The translations under genes were made by a program, and so were the position numbers. A DNA stretch of 46,807 nt from Pseudomonadota bacterium (GTDB lineage: Bacteria; Pseudomonadota; Gammaproteobacteria; Acidiferrobacterales; UBA6901): positions 80,614 to 127,420 of the forward strand of contig DAHXOO010000003.1 in assembly GCA_027364845.1 (NCBI GenBank). The letters run 5' to 3'. This document shows, in pieces, positions 598 through 11,364 of the stretch (its first letter is position 1; every line of letters begins with the position of its first letter). The notes under the pieces were generated by a model that saw nothing but the letters and a program-made list of their open reading frames with translations, was not told the DNA's origin and did not search any database.

Positions 598-1662
598 ATG
601 GCATTAGTTTCTCTGCGCCAACTGCTGGACCACGCCGCTGAGCACACTTACGGCGTGCCGGCGTTTAATGTAAATAACCTCGAGCAGATGCGTGCCATCA
701 TGGAAGCCGCGGCCGAAACCGACAGCCCCGTGATCGTGCAGGCATCGGCCGGTGCCCGCAAGTATGCCGGGGCGTCATTCCTGCGCCACCTGATCCTGGC
801 CGCCATCGAAGAGTGGCCTCAGATACCGGTGGTGATGCATCAGGATCACGGTGCGAGTCCGGCCGTGTGTCAGCGCTCCATTCAACTCGGCTTCTCCTCG
901 GTGATGATGGACGGATCGCTCAAGGAGGACATGAAGACGCCGGCGACCTACGATTACAACGTGGACGTGACCAGGCGCGTGGTAGACATGGCCCATTCCT
1001 GCGGAGTGTCCGTGGAGGGCGAACTCGGTTGTCTCGGAAGTCTCGAAACTGGGATGGCAGGGGAGGAAGACGGTTCAGGCGCCGAGGGCAAGCTTGACCA
1101 CAGCCAGTTGCTGACCGACCCTGACCAGGCTGCGGACTTCGTTAAGAAAACGAAGGTGGACGCGCTTGCGATCGCCATCGGCACCAGTCATGGTGCTTAC
1201 AAGTTTACCCGTCCTCCGACTGGCGAAATCCTTGCCATCGAACGCATCAAGCAAATCCATAGTCGTATTCCTACTACTCACTTGGTGATGCATGGATCAA
1301 GCTCCGTGCCGCAGGACTGGCTCAAGATGATTAACAGCTACGGCGGCGATATGGGGCAGACCTACGGCGTCCCGGTCGAGGAGATACAGCAAGGCATCAA
1401 GCATGGCGTGCGCAAGGTCAATATCGATACGGATCTACGCATGGCGTCGACTGGTGCGGTGCGCAAGTTCCTGGCAGAGAACAAGAAGGAATTTGATCCG
1501 CGCAAGTGGCTTGCGGCGGCGACGAAGGGGATGAAGGAGATCTGTAAGCTTCGCTACGAGGCTTTTGGTTGTGCTGGCCAGGCTTCGAAGATTAAGGTGA
1601 TCAGCCTGGAAGCCATGACCAAGCGTTACGAGAAGGGCGAGCTTGATCCGCGTGTGAATTGA
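598..1662 (+). CDS. fba: Class II fructose-bisphosphate aldolase, Calvin-cycle type
   Basis: The enzyme condenses dihydroxyacetone phosphate with glyceraldehyde-3-phosphate (or erythrose-4-phosphate) in the Calvin cycle, and works in reverse in glycolysis. The 354-residue length fits the CbbA-type class II family. Visible zinc and active-site motifs are HQDHG at 81-85, GELG around 141-144, SHGAYKF with His198, the VMHGSSS segment with His232, and NIDTD at 275-279. The ATG at 598 follows a TAGGAGAT ribosome site at 586-593. It stands alone in its transcript: the next hairpins (1679-1759) look like a terminator, and it lies about 2 kb from cbbL, on the far side of cbbR. The function is secure; the aldolase and sedoheptulose-bisphosphate activities cannot be separated from sequence. 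Confidence 0.95.
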
Positions 1663-1935: not shown

Positions 1936-2328
1936 ATGAATCACCGGAAATATCCCTGCCCAGTTTGTGGCTACCAGGTTTTCCGCCAGCAGCCGGGCAA
2001 TCACGAAAAGTGTCCGATTTGCCTGTGGGAAGATGATCTCGCACAGCTGCGTTTTCCGCGCATGCCGGGCAGTGCCAACTGGGTTTCGCTCGAGCAGGCT
2101 CAGCATAATTACGAGTCGTTCGGCACTGCTGAGCGCCGCAATATTGGTAGTGCACACGGCCCACTGGAAGGCGACGAGCGCGATGAATACTGGCGCCCTC
2201 TTGATCCGTCGCGCGACAACGTGGAAGAACCCCAGTATGGTGTGGATTATGCGGATTCCTATCCGCTTGCGGATACGACGGTGTTGTATTACTGGCGTTC
2301 GACTTATTGGCGGCGCCTAGCGAGCTGA
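1936..2328 (+). CDS. Cysteine-rich CPCC-family protein, function unknown
   Basis: A 130-residue protein with two paired-cysteine knuckles, CPVC (Cys8, Cys11) and CPIC (Cys26, Cys29), followed by the WEDD segment that is typical of the CPCC family (a small bacterial family of unknown role, probably zinc-binding). The rest is aromatic and acidic with no membrane segment. The ATG at 1936 has only a weak ribosome site. It lies between the fba terminator and the 3' end of cbbR and appears to be monocistronic. The family assignment rests on the cysteine pattern; no function is claimed. Confidence 0.8.
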   Translation: MNHRKYPCPVCGYQVFRQQPGNHEKCPICLWEDDLAQLRFPRMPGSANWVSLEQAQHNYESFGTAERRNIGSAHGPLEGDERDEYWRPLDPSRDNVEEPQYGVDYADSYPLADTTVLYYWRSTYWRRLAS

Positions 2329-2553: not shown

Positions 2554-3438
2554 TTACGCCTCGGATAACAAGAAGCGCTTGAAAGCCTCGGCCGCAGCCG
2601 GGAGCCGCTTGCCGTGGCGGTGCACGATATACCAGTGCCGCATGATGGGAAATTCGGCAACCCGCAGAATGATGAGCCGTTTCAGGGTCAGTTCCTGCTC
2701 GATGGTAGCGCGCGACAGCAGTCCGAGCCCGAGTCCGGCCTGAACGCTTTGTTTGATTGCCTCATTGCTGCCGACCTCCATTCCTGTCTTCAGATGAATC
2801 CCTCTTTCGGCGAAGAATCGCTCCATTGCGATTCGGGTCCCGGAGCCTGGCTCGCGTACAAGGAAGGTTTCCTCTTGCAGCCGCTTGAGCGGAACGCTTT
2901 TCTCGTGCGCAAGCGGATGATTCGGCGGTGCGACCACCACCAACGGGTTCTCCATGAACTCCTGCGCGTCGACATCGAGCGTGGCCGGCGGCTGGCCCAT
3001 GATTACCAGATCCACGGCGTTGTCATTGAGCTGCCCCAGCAGGGTTTCACGATTTGTCACGTCGAGGCTCACGGTTACACCCGGGAACCGTTGATGGAAC
3101 GTAGCGAGCAGGTTGGGTACGAAATAGTTGGCCGTCGAGGCAACCGATATCCGCAGTCTGCCACTGTTCAAACCCTTCAGGTCAGCGAGCAATGTTTCCA
3201 TTTCATCGAGCTGTTGGGCGATTGACCGGCTGTACTGATAGACCTCACGCCCAGCCTCGGTGAGATGAATGCGCTTGCCCAGACGCTCAAACAATGGTGC
3301 GCCGAGCTGTCGCTCGAGTTGCCGCACCTGCATGGAGACCGCTGGTTGGCTGAGAAACAACTCGGCGGCGGCACGGGTATAACTCAGATTGCGCGCAACC
3401 GATTCGAAAACCTTCATTTGGCGCAAAGTAATATTCAT
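2554..3438 (-). CDS. cbbR: LysR-type RubisCO operon regulator CbbR
   Basis: A 294-residue LysR-type regulator. The N-terminal winged helix-turn-helix is in residues 1-65 (LRQMKVFESVARNLSYTRAA start, SQPAVSMQVRQLE recognition helix); the effector domain runs from about 90 to 294. It is transcribed divergently from cbbL, the standard arrangement for CbbR, which activates cbb operons in response to Calvin-cycle metabolites. The ATG at 3438-3436 has an AAGG ribosome site about ten bases upstream on the minus strand. The left arm of the operator inverted repeat overlaps this start codon, which suggests that CbbR represses its own gene while activating cbbL. The identification rests on family and position. 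Confidence 0.93.
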   Translation of the reverse strand: MNITLRQMKVFESVARNLSYTRAAAELFLSQPAVSMQVRQLERQLGAPLFERLGKRIHLTEAGREVYQYSRSIAQQLDEMETLLADLKGLNSGRLRISVASTANYFVPNLLATFHQRFPGVTVSLDVTNRETLLGQLNDNAVDLVIMGQPPATLDVDAQEFMENPLVVVAPPNHPLAHEKSVPLKRLQEETFLVREPGSGTRIAMERFFAERGIHLKTGMEVGSNEAIKQSVQAGLGLGLLSRATIEQELTLKRLIILRVAEFPIMRHWYIVHRHGKRLPAAAEAFKRFLLSEA

Positions 3439-3673: not shown

Positions 3674-5101
3674 ATGTCAGGCAAAGTGAAAAGTTACAAA
3701 GCAGGAGTCAAGGAATACCGCGAAACGTATTGGATGCCGGAATACAAGCCGAACGAAACCGACCTGCTGGCTTGCTTCAAGATTACCCCGCAGGCGGGCG
3801 TGCCCCGTGAAGAGGCCGCCGCCGCAGTGGCCGCGGAGTCTTCCACTGGCACCTGGACTACGGTTTGGACGGATCTTCTGACGGATCTTGACTACTACAA
3901 GGGCCGCGCGTATCGCATCGAGGACGTTCCGGGCGACGATACCTGTTTTTATGCATTCGTTGCCTACCCCATCGACTTGTTCGAAGAAGGCTCAGTCGTC
4001 AATGTGTTCACCTCGCTGGTGGGGAATGTTTTCGGTTTCAAGGCGATCCGTGCGCTACGTCTCGAGGACGTCCGCTTCCCAATCGCCTATGTAAAGACCT
4101 GTGGCGGCCCGCCCCAAGGAATCCAGGTCGAGCGCGACATCATGAACAAGTACGGCCGTCCGCTGCTGGGTTGCACCATCAAGCCCAAGCTCGGCCTGTC
4201 GGCCAAGAATTATGGTCGTGCGGTGTACGAGTGTCTGCGCGGTGGTTTGGACTTTACCAAGGACGACGAGAATGTGAACAGCCAGCCATTCATGCGCTGG
4301 CGGCAACGCTTCGACTTCGTCATGGAGGCGATTCACAAAGCCGAGGGGGAAACCGGTGAGCGCAAAGGCCACTATCTGAACGTCACGGCTCCGACTCCAG
4401 AAGAAATGTACAAGCGGGCGGAACACGCTAAGCAGATCGGCGCGCCTATTATTATGCACGATTACATCACCGGCGGATTCTGTGCTAATACCGGTCTGGC
4501 CAACTGGTGCCGCGATAACGGCATGTTGCTGCACATCCATCGCGCCATGCACGCCGTACTCGATCGCAACCCCCACCATGGCATCCACTTCCGCGTGCTG
4601 ACCAAGATCCTGCGCCTGTCCGGAGGAGACCATCTGCACACCGGTACTGTGGTGGGCAAGCTCGAAGGCGATCGTGCTTCGACGCTCGGCTGGATCGACA
4701 TCCTACGTGAGAAGTTCATCAAGGAAGACCGCAGCCGCGGGATCTTTTTCGATCAGGACTGGGGTTCCATGCCTGGGGCCTTCGCTGTCGCCTCCGGCGG
4801 GATTCACGTTTGGCACATGCCTGCGCTGGTCACTATCTTCGGCGATGACGCAGTGCTTCAGTTCGGTGGTGGCACTCTCGGTCACCCATGGGGCAATGCT
4901 GCCGGGGCGGCGGCTAACCGCGTCGCTCTTGAGGCCTGTGTGGAAGCACGCAACCAGGGTATTGCCATCGAGAAGGAAGGCAAGGCGGTACTCATGAAGG
5001 CCGCGCAGTCAAGTCCCGAGCTCAAGGTCGCAATGGAAACATGGAAGGAAATCAAGTTCGAGTTTGACACCGTCGACAAGCTGGATGTCATGCACAAATG
5101 A
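3674..5101 (+). CDS. cbbL: RubisCO large subunit, form I
   Basis: Catalyses carboxylation of ribulose-1,5-bisphosphate, the CO2-fixing step of the Calvin cycle. The start chosen is ATG 3674, which has GGAG at 3660-3663 and gives the family N-terminus ([15 protein letters not shown]) and about 475 residues; the frame is open further upstream to 3590 but that extension is not family-like. Diagnostic segments are [14 protein letters not shown] (catalytic Lys), [10 protein letters not shown] (carbamylated Lys), HIHRAMHAV and loop 6 [12 protein letters not shown]. The sequence is closest to form IA. No carboxysome genes follow; cbbQ and cbbO do, which is typical of the non-carboxysomal IA type. 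It is first in the operon cbbL-cbbS-cbbQ-X-cbbO and divergent from cbbR. Confidence 0.97.
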
Positions 5102-5225: not shown

Positions 5226-5585
5226 ATGAGTGAAATGCAAGACTACAAGTCGAGTCTGACGGATGTCTCAAGCCGCAAGTTTGAGACTTTCTCCTACCTG
5301 CCAGCGATGAATGCCGCAGAGATCCGCAAGCAGGTCGAATACGTTGTCAAACGCGGCTGGAATCCGGCTATCGAGCATACCGAGCCGGAAAACGCCTTCG
5401 GCCATTACTGGTACATGTGGAAGCTGCCAATGTTCGGCGAGACCGACGTTGATCGGATTCTGGCCGAAGCCGATGCCTGCCACAAAGCGCATCCTGGCAA
5501 TCATGTGCGGCTGGTGGGTTACGACAATTACAAGCAGTCGCAGGGCGCTGCGATGGTGATCTACCGCAGCAAGATCAAGGCCTGA
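5226..5585 (+). CDS. cbbS: RubisCO small subunit
   Basis: A 119-residue small subunit that caps the L8 core to form L8S8. Family markers are [12 protein letters not shown] near the N-terminus, the [16 protein letters not shown] segment, and the C-terminal [16 protein letters not shown]. The ATG at 5226 has a GGAGCAA ribosome site at 5214-5220. It lies 124 bp after cbbL in the same direction. A GC-rich hairpin follows before cbbQ and may set different transcript levels for structural and activase genes. Confidence 0.96.
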
Positions 5586-5752: not shown

Positions 5753-6586
<834 letters not shown>

Positions 6587-6600
6587 GAGGTCCGGCGTAA

Positions 6601-6909
6601 ATGGGTGAGTCGAACAAGTACCCCGGCATCCATCGTGACCACTTTGGCGGCATGACCGACGTGGGTCGCATTATCCGTGACGCCTGGGTTTTCGGTCTTC
6701 TACCGGAGAGCGAAACCTGCGAAGGCTGGGCGCGCGCCCAGTTCGATGAACTGTATGCCCAGGTGCATGTGGCCTGGGGGCCTTACGGCCATCTAGTTAG
6801 CCACCTTCCGCCCGAACTGCGGGCGCGCCACGAGCGCATATATGCCGCGGCGATGCAGCACGCCCTTGATCTCGGTTGGTCGTCTGACCTGGACGACGAC
6901 GACGAATGA
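6601..6909 (+). CDS. Small acidic protein between cbbQ and cbbO, unknown
   Basis: A 102-residue protein that I do not recognise. It starts 14 bp after cbbQ with GAGAGG upstream and ends 28 bp before cbbO, so it is very probably co-translated with the activase genes. It is soluble, rich in aromatic and charged residues (a DVGRIIRDAWVFGLLPE segment and a Pro-rich YGHLVSHLPPELR segment), and ends in a short acidic tail (DLDDDDE). No catalytic motif or cysteine pair is evident. Codon use matches its neighbours and the frame is clean, so it is likely to be real. A role as adaptor or assembly factor for CbbQ-CbbO is a guess from position only. Confidence 0.8.
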   Translation: MGESNKYPGIHRDHFGGMTDVGRIIRDAWVFGLLPESETCEGWARAQFDELYAQVHVAWGPYGHLVSHLPPELRARHERIYAAAMQHALDLGWSSDLDDDDE

Positions 6910-6937: not shown

Positions 6938-9271
6938 ATGACCGTCAGTCTCGACGAATACAAGGAATATCTCGGCCACATCGAACCGCATGTCCGCGAC
7001 TCTCTCAGCGAGAGCTTCGCTGAGGCGGCACGTGTAATGTCGCCCCACGGCCTGCAACGATGGCTCGAAGGAGCGAAAAGCCTGACGCAGCTCGGGCGCG
7101 GCAGCGAACTCGTCGTAACCTATCTGCAGGCATTGCCGCTCGTGGTCAAGGAAGTGGGCGAGGACGTACTGGTGGACTGCATCACCAGTGCCATGAAGCT
7201 CGCGTCGATGGTCAGCGGCGAGGTGATTCAGCTGCTGTTTGATACGCTGCCGGTCGCTGCCGGACGCCTTGGCGATGCCGAGCTGCTGCGCGGTTATCTC
7301 AGCCTTGTTCATCAGCTTTCGGCACGGGTGCCGCGCGGCCTGCGCCCCATGCTTGCCCACCTTGATGAGCTTTTTGCCAAGCTCACGCTTGGAGGTCTGC
7401 GGCGCTGGGCGCTGTGGGGAGCGCAGGCGCATGCACGTGATTTCCAGGCGCAGCTCGCGTACTTCGATCTGAAGAGCGCTGACAGCCTTAGCGTGTTGCA
7501 AAAGGAAAGGCGCGGCACGCTCTTCATTGACAGTCAAAGAAAGATCAATTTCTACCTGCGGGCATTCTGGGGCCGCGACTTCTTTCTGCGCCCGACGTCA
7601 GGGGACTACGAAACGCGTGAGGGTTACAGGCCATTCATCGAAAAACGGGTTATCCACCTGCCTGATGCCTATGATGACTATGCCGGCATAGCGGGAAAGG
7701 AATTGTATCGCGCCGCCGCCGCGCATGCGGCAGCGCATCTGGTTTATACGCGCGAACCCATGTCAATGGAACAGCTGAGTCCGGTACAGATGTTCTTGAT
7801 CGGCGTTTTCGAGGATGCTCGCATCGAGCATCTCGCGTTACGTGAATTTCCCGGCATGAAGCAGCTCTGGTCCCAGTTCCATGCCAAGGTGCGCGAAGTA
7901 AGCTGTCCGACCGATGCGGTGGTCGGTTTTCTCGAACGTCTCGCTTATTCACTGCTCGACGAGAGCTACCACGACGATGACAGGCTGATCTTGGATATGA
8001 CTGTACGTTTTCGGGACGAGTGCAGGCTACGTGCCACCGACAACCGCCTGTCGTGGGAATTGGGGGTAAGACTTTACAATTCTTTCCGAGAATCTTCTGT
8101 CGTGCCTTCGCTGCGCGCGCTTGAAACGATGGCAATCCCGTACCGCGATGACAATCGCTACTGCTGGGCTTCTGATGAAATCGCCTGGCAAGAAGCCGAC
8201 TATGTGCCAGCGCCGAAGCAAGTGCGAAAGTACGTTTCGACCATGGACATGGTGAACGAACTCGACTGCGAGCTGGCCGGCGATGACGCCCAGGAGATCT
8301 GGGTGCTGAAGGAACCATTTTTTCTCGACCAGGAAGGATGTGCGATCAACGATCTGGAAGGCAAGGAGCCGGTGTCGGAGCCGTATCACTACCAAGAGTG
8401 GGACTACACCGTGCAGCTCCATCGGCCTAGCTGGGTAACCGTTCTGGAAAAGCGCCAGCAGAGAGGCGATCCGGCGGAAATCGACAGGATCCTGACGGAA
8501 AACAGACCGGTGGCTTCGCGCTTGCGGCGCATCATAGATGCTATGCAGCCGGAAGGTGTGCAGCGCATTCGCCGACAGGAAGACGGCGAGGAGATCGACC
8601 TCAATGCCGCAATCCGCGCACTGATTGACATCCGTATGGGGCATATGCCGGACCAGCGAATCAACATCCGCCTAGTGCGCAAGGTACGTGATCTTGCGGT
8701 CTTGGTCTTGCTCGATCTTTCGGAATCAACCAACGAGAAGTTGGGCGCATCCGTGAAGCCCGTGATTCAGCTGGCGCGCGAAGCGACTTCGCTACTGTCA
8801 TGGGCGATCGATCGCGTTGGCGATCCGTTTGCAATCCACGGTTTCGCGTCTGATGGTAGGCACGAGGTCAAGTATTACCGTTTCAAGGACTTCAGTGATT
8901 CGTACAGTGACGACGTCAAGTCGCGGCTTGCTGGCATGCACGGCGGCTTTTCAACACGCATGGGGGCGGCACTGCGGCATGCGGCGACTTTCCTGCTGAA
9001 GCAGCCCGAGCAGAAGAAGCTGATCCTGCTGCTGACCGATGGTGAACCGGCCGACATCGACGTGCGCGATCCGCAGTACCTACGGCACGACACGAAAAAA
9101 GCGGTTGAAGAGCTGGCCGCGCGGGGCGTACGCACCTTCTGTATGACACTCGATCCGAATGCTGACGACTATGTCGCGCGCATTTTTGGCCCAAAGAACT
9201 ACCTGGTGATAGACCAGGTCGACCAGCTGCCGGAACGGTTGCCGCGACTTTATGCCGGTCTGACTAGATAG
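6938..9271 (+). CDS. cbbO: RubisCO activase VWA subunit CbbO
   Basis: A protein of about 777 residues. The C-terminal von Willebrand factor A domain carries an intact MIDAS: DLSES (Asp593, Ser595, Ser597), Thr673 and Asp701 (TDGE). CbbO links the CbbQ ring to RubisCO through this domain. The start chosen is ATG 6938 (MTVSLDEYKEYL), because the open frame upstream to 6842 overlaps the preceding gene; the ribosome site is weak, so translation is probably coupled to the gene before. The stop at 9271 is followed by a 7-bp hairpin (9275-9281 with 9285-9291) without a T-run. It closes the cbb operon. Confidence 0.93.
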   Translation: MTVSLDEYKEYLGHIEPHVRDSLSESFAEAARVMSPHGLQRWLEGAKSLTQLGRGSELVVTYLQALPLVVKEVGEDVLVDCITSAMKLASMVSGEVIQLLFDTLPVAAGRLGDAELLRGYLSLVHQLSARVPRGLRPMLAHLDELFAKLTLGGLRRWALWGAQAHARDFQAQLAYFDLKSADSLSVLQKERRGTLFIDSQRKINFYLRAFWGRDFFLRPTSGDYETREGYRPFIEKRVIHLPDAYDDYAGIAGKELYRAAAAHAAAHLVYTREPMSMEQLSPVQMFLIGVFEDARIEHLALREFPGMKQLWSQFHAKVREVSCPTDAVVGFLERLAYSLLDESYHDDDRLILDMTVRFRDECRLRATDNRLSWELGVRLYNSFRESSVVPSLRALETMAIPYRDDNRYCWASDEIAWQEADYVPAPKQVRKYVSTMDMVNELDCELAGDDAQEIWVLKEPFFLDQEGCAINDLEGKEPVSEPYHYQEWDYTVQLHRPSWVTVLEKRQQRGDPAEIDRILTENRPVASRLRRIIDAMQPEGVQRIRRQEDGEEIDLNAAIRALIDIRMGHMPDQRINIRLVRKVRDLAVLVLLDLSESTNEKLGASVKPVIQLAREATSLLSWAIDRVGDPFAIHGFASDGRHEVKYYRFKDFSDSYSDDVKSRLAGMHGGFSTRMGAALRHAATFLLKQPEQKKLILLLTDGEPADIDVRDPQYLRHDTKKAVEELAARGVRTFCMTLDPNADDYVARIFGPKNYLVIDQVDQLPERLPRLYAGLTR

Positions 9272-10584: not shown

Positions 10585-10716
10585 CCGTGCTGGGATGGCC
10601 GCATTGTGGCGTAAGCCTCGGATTCGCCGCGCAGCTGGCGGGCGGCCGCTTTCCGAATCCGCCCTGAGATGTGTACTTGGTGTCAGCGATTGAACAACAT
10701 GTGAGTGAGTTTGCAC

Positions 10717-11364
10717 ATGAAAGATGTCAATGAACTGGTCGACGGTTTCCGGCGCTTTCAACAGCGCTATTTTTCGGAAGACCGTGGGCTTTATGAACGT
10801 CTCACCCGTCAGGGTCAGTCGCCCAAGGTCATGATCGTGGCATGCTGCGATTCGCGAGTAGACCCGGCAATCATTACCGACAGTGATCCCGGGGACCTGT
10901 TTGTGGTGCGTAACGTTGCGAACCTTGTGCCACCTTGCGAGGTAGGCGGGGGTTATCATGGCACGAGCGCAGCACTGGAGTTTGCCGTTAGCACGCTACA
11001 TGTCAGCCAGCTGATCGTGATGGGGCACACCCGCTGCGGCGGAATACGCGCGCTCCTTGGAGAAATCCCGGAACGATCCGTACCGTCCGGATTTATCGCG
11101 CCGTGGATGTCGATCGTCGCGGAAGCTCGGCACGAAGTGCAGGCGGCATTTCCCGAAACGGCGGGCGAGGCGCGTGAGCGCGCTTGCGAGCAGGCTGCGA
11201 TCCGGATCTCTCTGCGTAATCTCAAGGGTTTTCCATTTGTGCGAGAGGCGGTTATAGCCGGGCGGCTGACATTGCATGGATGGTATTTCGACCTGGAACG
11301 CGGAGAGCTGCTGTGTCATTCTGCAGCCACCGACGCGTTCGAAGTGGCAGTCGCACGTCTTTGA
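10717..11364 (+). CDS. Beta-class carbonic anhydrase
   Basis: A protein of about 215 residues that interconverts CO2 and bicarbonate with a zinc ion. Zinc ligands are visible: Cys44 in ACCDSR, with Asp45 and Arg47 as the catalytic dyad, and His104 and Cys107 in GHTRCGG. There is no signal peptide, so it is cytoplasmic. An in-frame GTG at 10705 is an alternative start four codons earlier; ATG 10717 is preferred for its fit to the family N-terminus. Its position downstream of cbb genes suggests CO2 supply for RubisCO in a cell without carboxysome genes here. A terminator-like hairpin follows. Confidence 0.93.
   Translation: MKDVNELVDGFRRFQQRYFSEDRGLYERLTRQGQSPKVMIVACCDSRVDPAIITDSDPGDLFVVRNVANLVPPCEVGGGYHGTSAALEFAVSTLHVSQLIVMGHTRCGGIRALLGEIPERSVPSGFIAPWMSIVAEARHEVQAAFPETAGEARERACEQAAIRISLRNLKGFPFVREAVIAGRLTLHGWYFDLERGELLCHSAATDAFEVAVARL

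Follow-up and report, generated by a model that had tools for sequence, protein, structure and literature searches.

Relation to described RubisCO accessory proteins

RbcX is a RubisCO chaperone of cyanobacteria: a small, helical protein encoded beside the RubisCO genes, which binds the C-terminal segment of RbcL and is dispensable in some hosts. RbcX chains are present in the PDB. The pterin dehydratase-like assembly factor of alpha-carboxysomes, acRAF, is described in the accessible part of its source as a pcd-like protein (pfam01329, PMC4633670). For the CbbQ-CbbO activase, the available parts of two reports describe CbbQO of A. ferrooxidans and H. neapolitanus as active in vitro as two proteins (PMC8718961, PMC4660213), and a C-terminal HK/R motif of RbcL is reported there as needed by CbbQO (PMC8718961).

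In the window, by which we mean the whole stretch of 46,807 nucleotides analysed here, a small gene termed X lies between cbbQ and cbbO of a form IA RubisCO operon (Table 1); it is present as a single copy in its genome. The preliminary description had pointed to the tight packing of this gene, and the gaps of 14 bp from the cbbQ stop codon to X and of 28 bp from X to the cbbO start codon were confirmed. The same holds for the good ribosome site of X and the weak one of cbbO: by eye, GAGAGG is located 10 nt before the start codon of X, and nothing comparable was seen upstream of cbbO in the window sequence. The product of the window's cbbL ends in ...KLDVMHK and thus contains the HK/R motif. 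The divergent LysR-type regulator is probably cbbR, a name given from its position.

Table 1. Features of the cbb locus and of related loci in the same genome. Positions are those of the window unless a stretch identifier (L253, L254) is given; numbers after Pfam families are E-values.
Feature	Position	Strand	Remarks
Cysteine-rich CPCC protein	1936-2328		Pfam 6e-26; between aldolase gene and LysR gene
LysR-type regulator, divergent to cbbL	2554..3438	-	Pfam LysR_substrate 1.3e-61, HTH_1 2.4e-23
cbbL, form IA RubisCO large subunit	3674..5101	+	Pfam RuBisCO_large 1.7e-137
cbbS, RubisCO small subunit	5226..5585	+	RuBisCO_small match G000:C118:85893-86180 inside ORF
cbbQ, AAA+ subunit of RubisCO activase	5753..6586	+	Pfam CbbQ_C 1.5e-33
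GAGAGG, likely ribosome-binding site of X	6585..6590	+	By eye; overlaps cbbQ stop codon
Gene X	6601..6909	+	102 aa, ATG start; unnamed family
cbbO, VWA subunit of RubisCO activase	6938..9271	+	Pfam VWA 7.7e-10; start agrees with aligned relatives
Beta-type carbonic anhydrase gene	10705-11364		Pfam Pro_CA 9e-47; downstream of cbbO, behind an aminotransferase gene
Larger Calvin-cycle cluster	L253:7001-16273, running on into window 598-1662		Upstream of the window
Y copy 1	L253:6643-7002		Own contig, ~7.6 kb before the window, near head of Calvin-cycle cluster
Y copy 2	L254:5282-5620
Second RubisCO	L254:7448-9241		Form IC-like, 54% identical to window RbcL; own LysR regulator and Y copy

The frames of the larger Calvin-cycle cluster were assigned by eye as phosphatase, transketolase, GAPDH, phosphoglycerate kinase and pyruvate kinase, followed by aldolase (Pfam) and the cbb operon.

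X resembles RbcX in the role proposed for it, in its small size, in the helical build of its model and in the location of its gene beside RubisCO genes. In contrast to RbcX, however, X goes with form IA RubisCO, no RbcX was among its PDB sequence matches (phmmer and profile searches, to E 10) and its all-helical model found no convincing match in the PDB. Like acRAF, X is linked to form IA RubisCO, but it has no Pfam match of the pterin-4a-carbinolamine dehydratase type expected of acRAF or Raf2 (E up to 1), and it also occurs in operons in which no carboxysome genes were seen alongside. A CP12 match was likewise not found in Pfam at E up to 1. X shares operons with CbbQ and CbbO but lacks an AAA+ or VWA match in Pfam, and in the available parts of the reports it is not a component of the reconstituted activase (PMC8718961, PMC4660213). 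Membership of X in RbcX, acRAF, CP12 or CbbQO is therefore not supported.

Three further genes can be set beside X from the accessible portions of their sources. The three-gene cbbLSQ operon of Methylococcus capsulatus is given four locus tags (MCA2743-46, with cbbL as 2743 and cbbQ as 2746; PMC13108547), so one unnamed gene should lie between cbbL and cbbQ, where X is usually located; the likeness is one of position alone. Also by position alone, a small hypothetical gene that adjoins the one for PII in the DAB cluster of H. neapolitanus (PMC4633670) is comparable to X in L033 and L044. The gene orf06 of Bohnke and Perner (2015), of unknown function and said to influence RubisCO (PMC5506194), is similar to X by description only.

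Gene X is conserved and belongs to an unnamed family

Scanning genome contigs, we found relatives of X encoded in 299 stretches, 80 of which were kept. The resulting alignment of 81 rows contains 14 invariant columns, including Y7, G9, R26-D-A-W-V-F31, W43, W59 and W93; C40 is nearly invariant and the only such cysteine. Between the window and four relatives dN was 0.21-0.25 and dS 1.2-3.1, the latter being near saturation. Judged from these sequences, X is genuine and has evolved under purifying selection.

The family is unnamed, as X was not recognised in searches of Pfam, NCBIfam, PHROGs or the PDB. The best Pfam matches were weak and fell far short of the cut-offs (COQ9_N 0.027, ARL17 0.1), NCBIfam gave no match, the best PHROGs match (0.29) was not significant, and neither was any PDB sequence match (best 1.1 with the single sequence, 0.067 with the profile). 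There was no match in the phage collection and a single one, on a Nitrobacter plasmid, in the plasmids searched. Some of the matches in our sample of 370 genomes lie within long open frames. The AlphaFold2 model of X consists of four helices and is all-helical (mean pLDDT 84.7), with a poorly predicted acidic tail. Fold searches returned nothing convincing (best Foldseek E 2.2, best VIA Z 2.6), which does not amount to proof of a new fold. A literature search that lay mostly outside subscription journals found no description of X, a protein without a name to search for, nor any paper treating cbbN together with cbbO; N. europaea cbbN may be a relative of X.

X co-occurs with form IA RubisCO

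We analysed the distribution of X in 370 gammaproteobacterial genomes with a completeness of at least 90% (class sample). X was found in 117 and a RuBisCO_small match in 154 of them: 112 genomes contain both, 5 X alone, 42 RubisCO alone and 211 neither. The form I small subunit is thus present in 112 of the 117 genomes with X versus 42 of the 253 without it (Fisher 5e-52, a value which ignores kinship). RubisCO forms were filed by hand from RbcL identity, assigning 146 of the 154 genomes to form IA (G286 and G362 without a whole RbcL) and 8 to form IC only; these classes, like those for CbbO below, were assigned by hand from tables, and draft genomes may hide genes. X is present in 112 of the 146 form IA genomes and in none of the 8 with form IC only, and was not seen in the remaining 34 form IA genomes. 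In a sample of 397 genomes from the phylum, X was detected in 11, four within the class and seven in one family outside it; all seven of the latter encode a form IA RbcL. The plasmid of Nitrobacter hamburgensis (L232) carries a diverged X with two signature residues changed. This copy adjoins DAB genes and is located 14 kb from the carboxysomal RubisCO genes cbbL, cbbS and csoS2. Neither CbbQ nor CbbO gave a match in the 40 kb around it.

Exceptions in the class sample are the five genomes with X and no small subunit, together with G362, which has a piece of one. G335 keeps a piece of a form IA rbcL, G146 and G205 have only a form II-like RbcL, and for G264, G312 and G362 no RbcL was found at E 1e-5. 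All six contain a gene of the phosphoribulokinase family, but other kinases match this family too, and matches also turned up in non-autotrophic controls. Overall X co-occurs closely, in sulfur oxidisers and related bacteria, with one particular form of RubisCO, whether carboxysomal or not, as an accessory protein of this enzyme would. Operon position and genome co-occurrence lend good support to its functional tie to RubisCO. In this respect the interpretation in the preliminary description is partly supported.

Operon position of X

Gene order was compared in 51 complete loci, pooled from the scan for related loci and the class sample, in which all five genes are whole (55 minus 4 with an identical CbbO). 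The commonest order is cbbL-cbbS-X-cbbQ-cbbO (30 loci), followed by cbbLSQO-X (10) and by cbbLSQO with X in reversed orientation (7). Homologs between cbbQ and cbbO, which the preliminary description had proposed to look for, do exist, but the window's order cbbLSQ-X-O is a minority variant found in 4 of 51 loci. In three relatives with this order the gap between X and cbbO is 2, 15 and 28 bp; in L141 and L146 it exceeds 100 bp. A dependence of cbbO translation on X, as suggested, is possible in the window but cannot account for the whole family.

Next to the complete loci we considered 120 places of X in the class sample, positioned by tblastn. The fetched stretch contained a cbb gene in 57 cases and none in 62, and gave no hit in one. 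When measured to the RubisCO, cbbQ or cbbO gene, form II genes included, the distance was up to 300 bp in 41 of the 57, up to 1.5 kb in 9, up to 6 kb in 3 and larger in 4. Among the 62 places without a cbb gene, 11 lie less than 3 kb from a contig end and 51 do not. A location of most homologs outside cbb operons had been named as an observation that would speak against an activase component, and with 57 of 120 places near a cbb gene about half of the homologs lie outside. Neighbour counts for the detached copies served as a guide only, because the crude ORF caller produced shadow ORFs. In L033, L044 and L164 the detached X immediately adjoins a DAB cluster, and in L197 and L202 an aldolase gene lies within ~2 kb. 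The DAB clusters adjoining X, including that of L232, comprise the carbon-uptake genes DabB-hypothetical-DabA-PII.

Furthermore, we noticed intact copies of X in decayed loci: beside pieces of rbcL (with a stop codon) or cbbO at L168:3013-3702 and L207:8650-9384, and beside pieces of cbbS and cbbQ at L125:7416-8343. No runs of N were found at these three loci. From these loci and from the genomes without CbbO described below it follows that X outlives the activase genes, and it seems to survive decay of the operon.

X in genomes without CbbO

The preliminary description had proposed that X is a third component of the RubisCO activase. CbbO was searched in the 159 genomes with X or RubisCO, counting as positive for the form-I-type protein those with a match of at least ~500 bits, or with a fragment at least 60% identical beside the pattern (G110, G318 and G341 are positive on fragments). 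X is present in 93 of 115 CbbO-positive versus 19 of 31 CbbO-negative form IA genomes (p 0.03). In these 19 genomes with X and form I RubisCO we found no form-I-type CbbO; one of them, G261, has a form II-type CbbQO. Reading rbcL in 20 stretches, from 18 of the 19 genomes (all except G362) and from G110 and G341, revealed csoS2 nearby in every case, i.e. the enzymes are carboxysomal, and all 20 RbcL tails are of a short form such as KLDVG that lacks the HK/R motif.

The X proteins of the 19 genomes retain the signature: 12 of the 14 residues are kept in all 19, V30 in 16 and V55 in 12. In a quickly built tree of X with 119 rows the CbbO-less state requires at least 13 changes, with every row other than the CbbO-less ones labelled positive. 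X is therefore not confined to genomes with a form-I-type CbbO, nor to those whose cognate RbcL has the HK/R tail, which is present in the window and absent from all 20 stretches read. A third CbbQO subunit as the general role of X was rejected as a requirement, since CbbO-less genomes keep the X signature. The published two-protein activity points in the same direction, while the hosts of those activases may carry X or not.

We also compared the distance matrix of X with those of its neighbours. Over the 51 loci the correlation (r) was 0.77 with RbcL, 0.72 with CbbQ, 0.68 with CbbO and 0.63 with CbbS, the comparison pairs RbcL-CbbS and CbbQ-CbbO giving 0.76 and 0.86. Bootstrap intervals for the X differences RbcL minus CbbQ and RbcL minus CbbO included zero. 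Within the 30 loci of the commonest order the values were 0.56 for CbbO, 0.43 for CbbQ and 0.30 for RbcL, and in the other 21 loci 0.55 for CbbQ, 0.52 for CbbO and 0.43 for RbcL. Because the lead of RbcL over all loci is reversed within the operon groups, we gave this comparison no weight.

A second unnamed family tracking RubisCO

A second unnamed family, Y, tracks RubisCO as well. It is present in 109 of the 370 class genomes, 102 of which contain form I RubisCO. Y proteins have ~120-155 aa in the family alignment (A2) and no Pfam or NCBIfam match; the model (pLDDT 90.7) is most similar to Atp11, a weak match (best VIA Z 5.8). The gene often follows cbbO and is found beside genes of form IA, of form IC and, judging from weak matches, of form II. 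By coordinates no more than a few kb separate it from form IC RubisCO in 13 genomes, including the genome of the window, and from form II in 3 genomes (weak matches, E ~1e-11 to 1e-13). A. ferrooxidans hyp3 was dropped as a candidate Y protein, being listed in the available part of the source as a methyltransferase-family protein (PMC6458275).

Possible role of X

Probably X assists RubisCO itself and is not an obligatory third member of CbbQO. A role as accessory protein to form IA RubisCO, independent of CbbQO, has in our estimate a probability of roughly 0.5. Such a protein would bind the RubisCO subunits or the L8S8 enzyme, probably via the conserved N-terminal segment IIRDAWVFG...E-TC-GW, and may help in the assembly, stability or placement/packaging of form IA RubisCO. 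Its target would be the enzyme and not the activase, and it would serve non-carboxysomal as well as carboxysomal form IA. Since X was not seen in 34 of the 146 form IA genomes, its help would not be obligatory. The location of about half of the X genes away from cbb genes, the somewhat greater frequency of X with form-I-type CbbO than without it, and the few X genomes in which form IA RubisCO went undetected speak against this reading. More tentatively, X could be specialised for free and carboxysomal form IA enzymes of proteobacteria, as their chaperone or as a factor in their stability or packaging, and be unrelated to RbcX, Raf1, acRAF and the activases, with the Y family as a second RubisCO-linked partner.

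The same uneven distribution of X with respect to CbbO would fit a protein that regulates the CbbQO activase or acts as its adaptor and that was kept for another use after loss of CbbO. In all 51 complete loci, which were selected for the presence of all five genes, X is in one operon with cbbQ and cbbO, and within operon groups its distances are closer to those of CbbO or CbbQ than to those of RbcL. The 19 form I genomes that keep X and its signature without a form-I-type CbbO, the missing tail in the 18 of them read and the in vitro activity of CbbQ and CbbO as two components nevertheless make this unlikely. We consider it doubtful, too, that X acts as a regulator of the Calvin cycle or of carbon uptake and leaves RubisCO untouched, e.g. 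via the LysR regulator, PII, DAB or other enzymes of the cycle. The copies directly beside DAB genes, on the Nitrobacter plasmid among others, the nearby aldolase genes and the retention of X with a phosphoribulokinase-family gene where form IA RubisCO went undetected would suit such a regulator; its absence from all eight form IC-only genomes and its commonest place in complete loci, between cbbS and cbbQ, would not. Finally, the tight gaps and the weak ribosome site of cbbO in the window could suggest that X is a hitchhiker, or that it serves cbbO as a translational leader, and has no function as a protein, which is very improbable given the strong conservation at the protein level, the low dN and the many genomes in which X is detached from cbbO.

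Form IA RubisCO drives much of chemosynthetic CO2 fixation, and accessory factors limit attempts at transferring RubisCO or carboxysomes to plants and E. coli. As a proposed accessory protein of this enzyme, X, which occurs in some three quarters of the form IA genomes sampled and often within the RubisCO operon, is a candidate for a missing factor, and what is called "cbbLSQO" is often not the complete operon.
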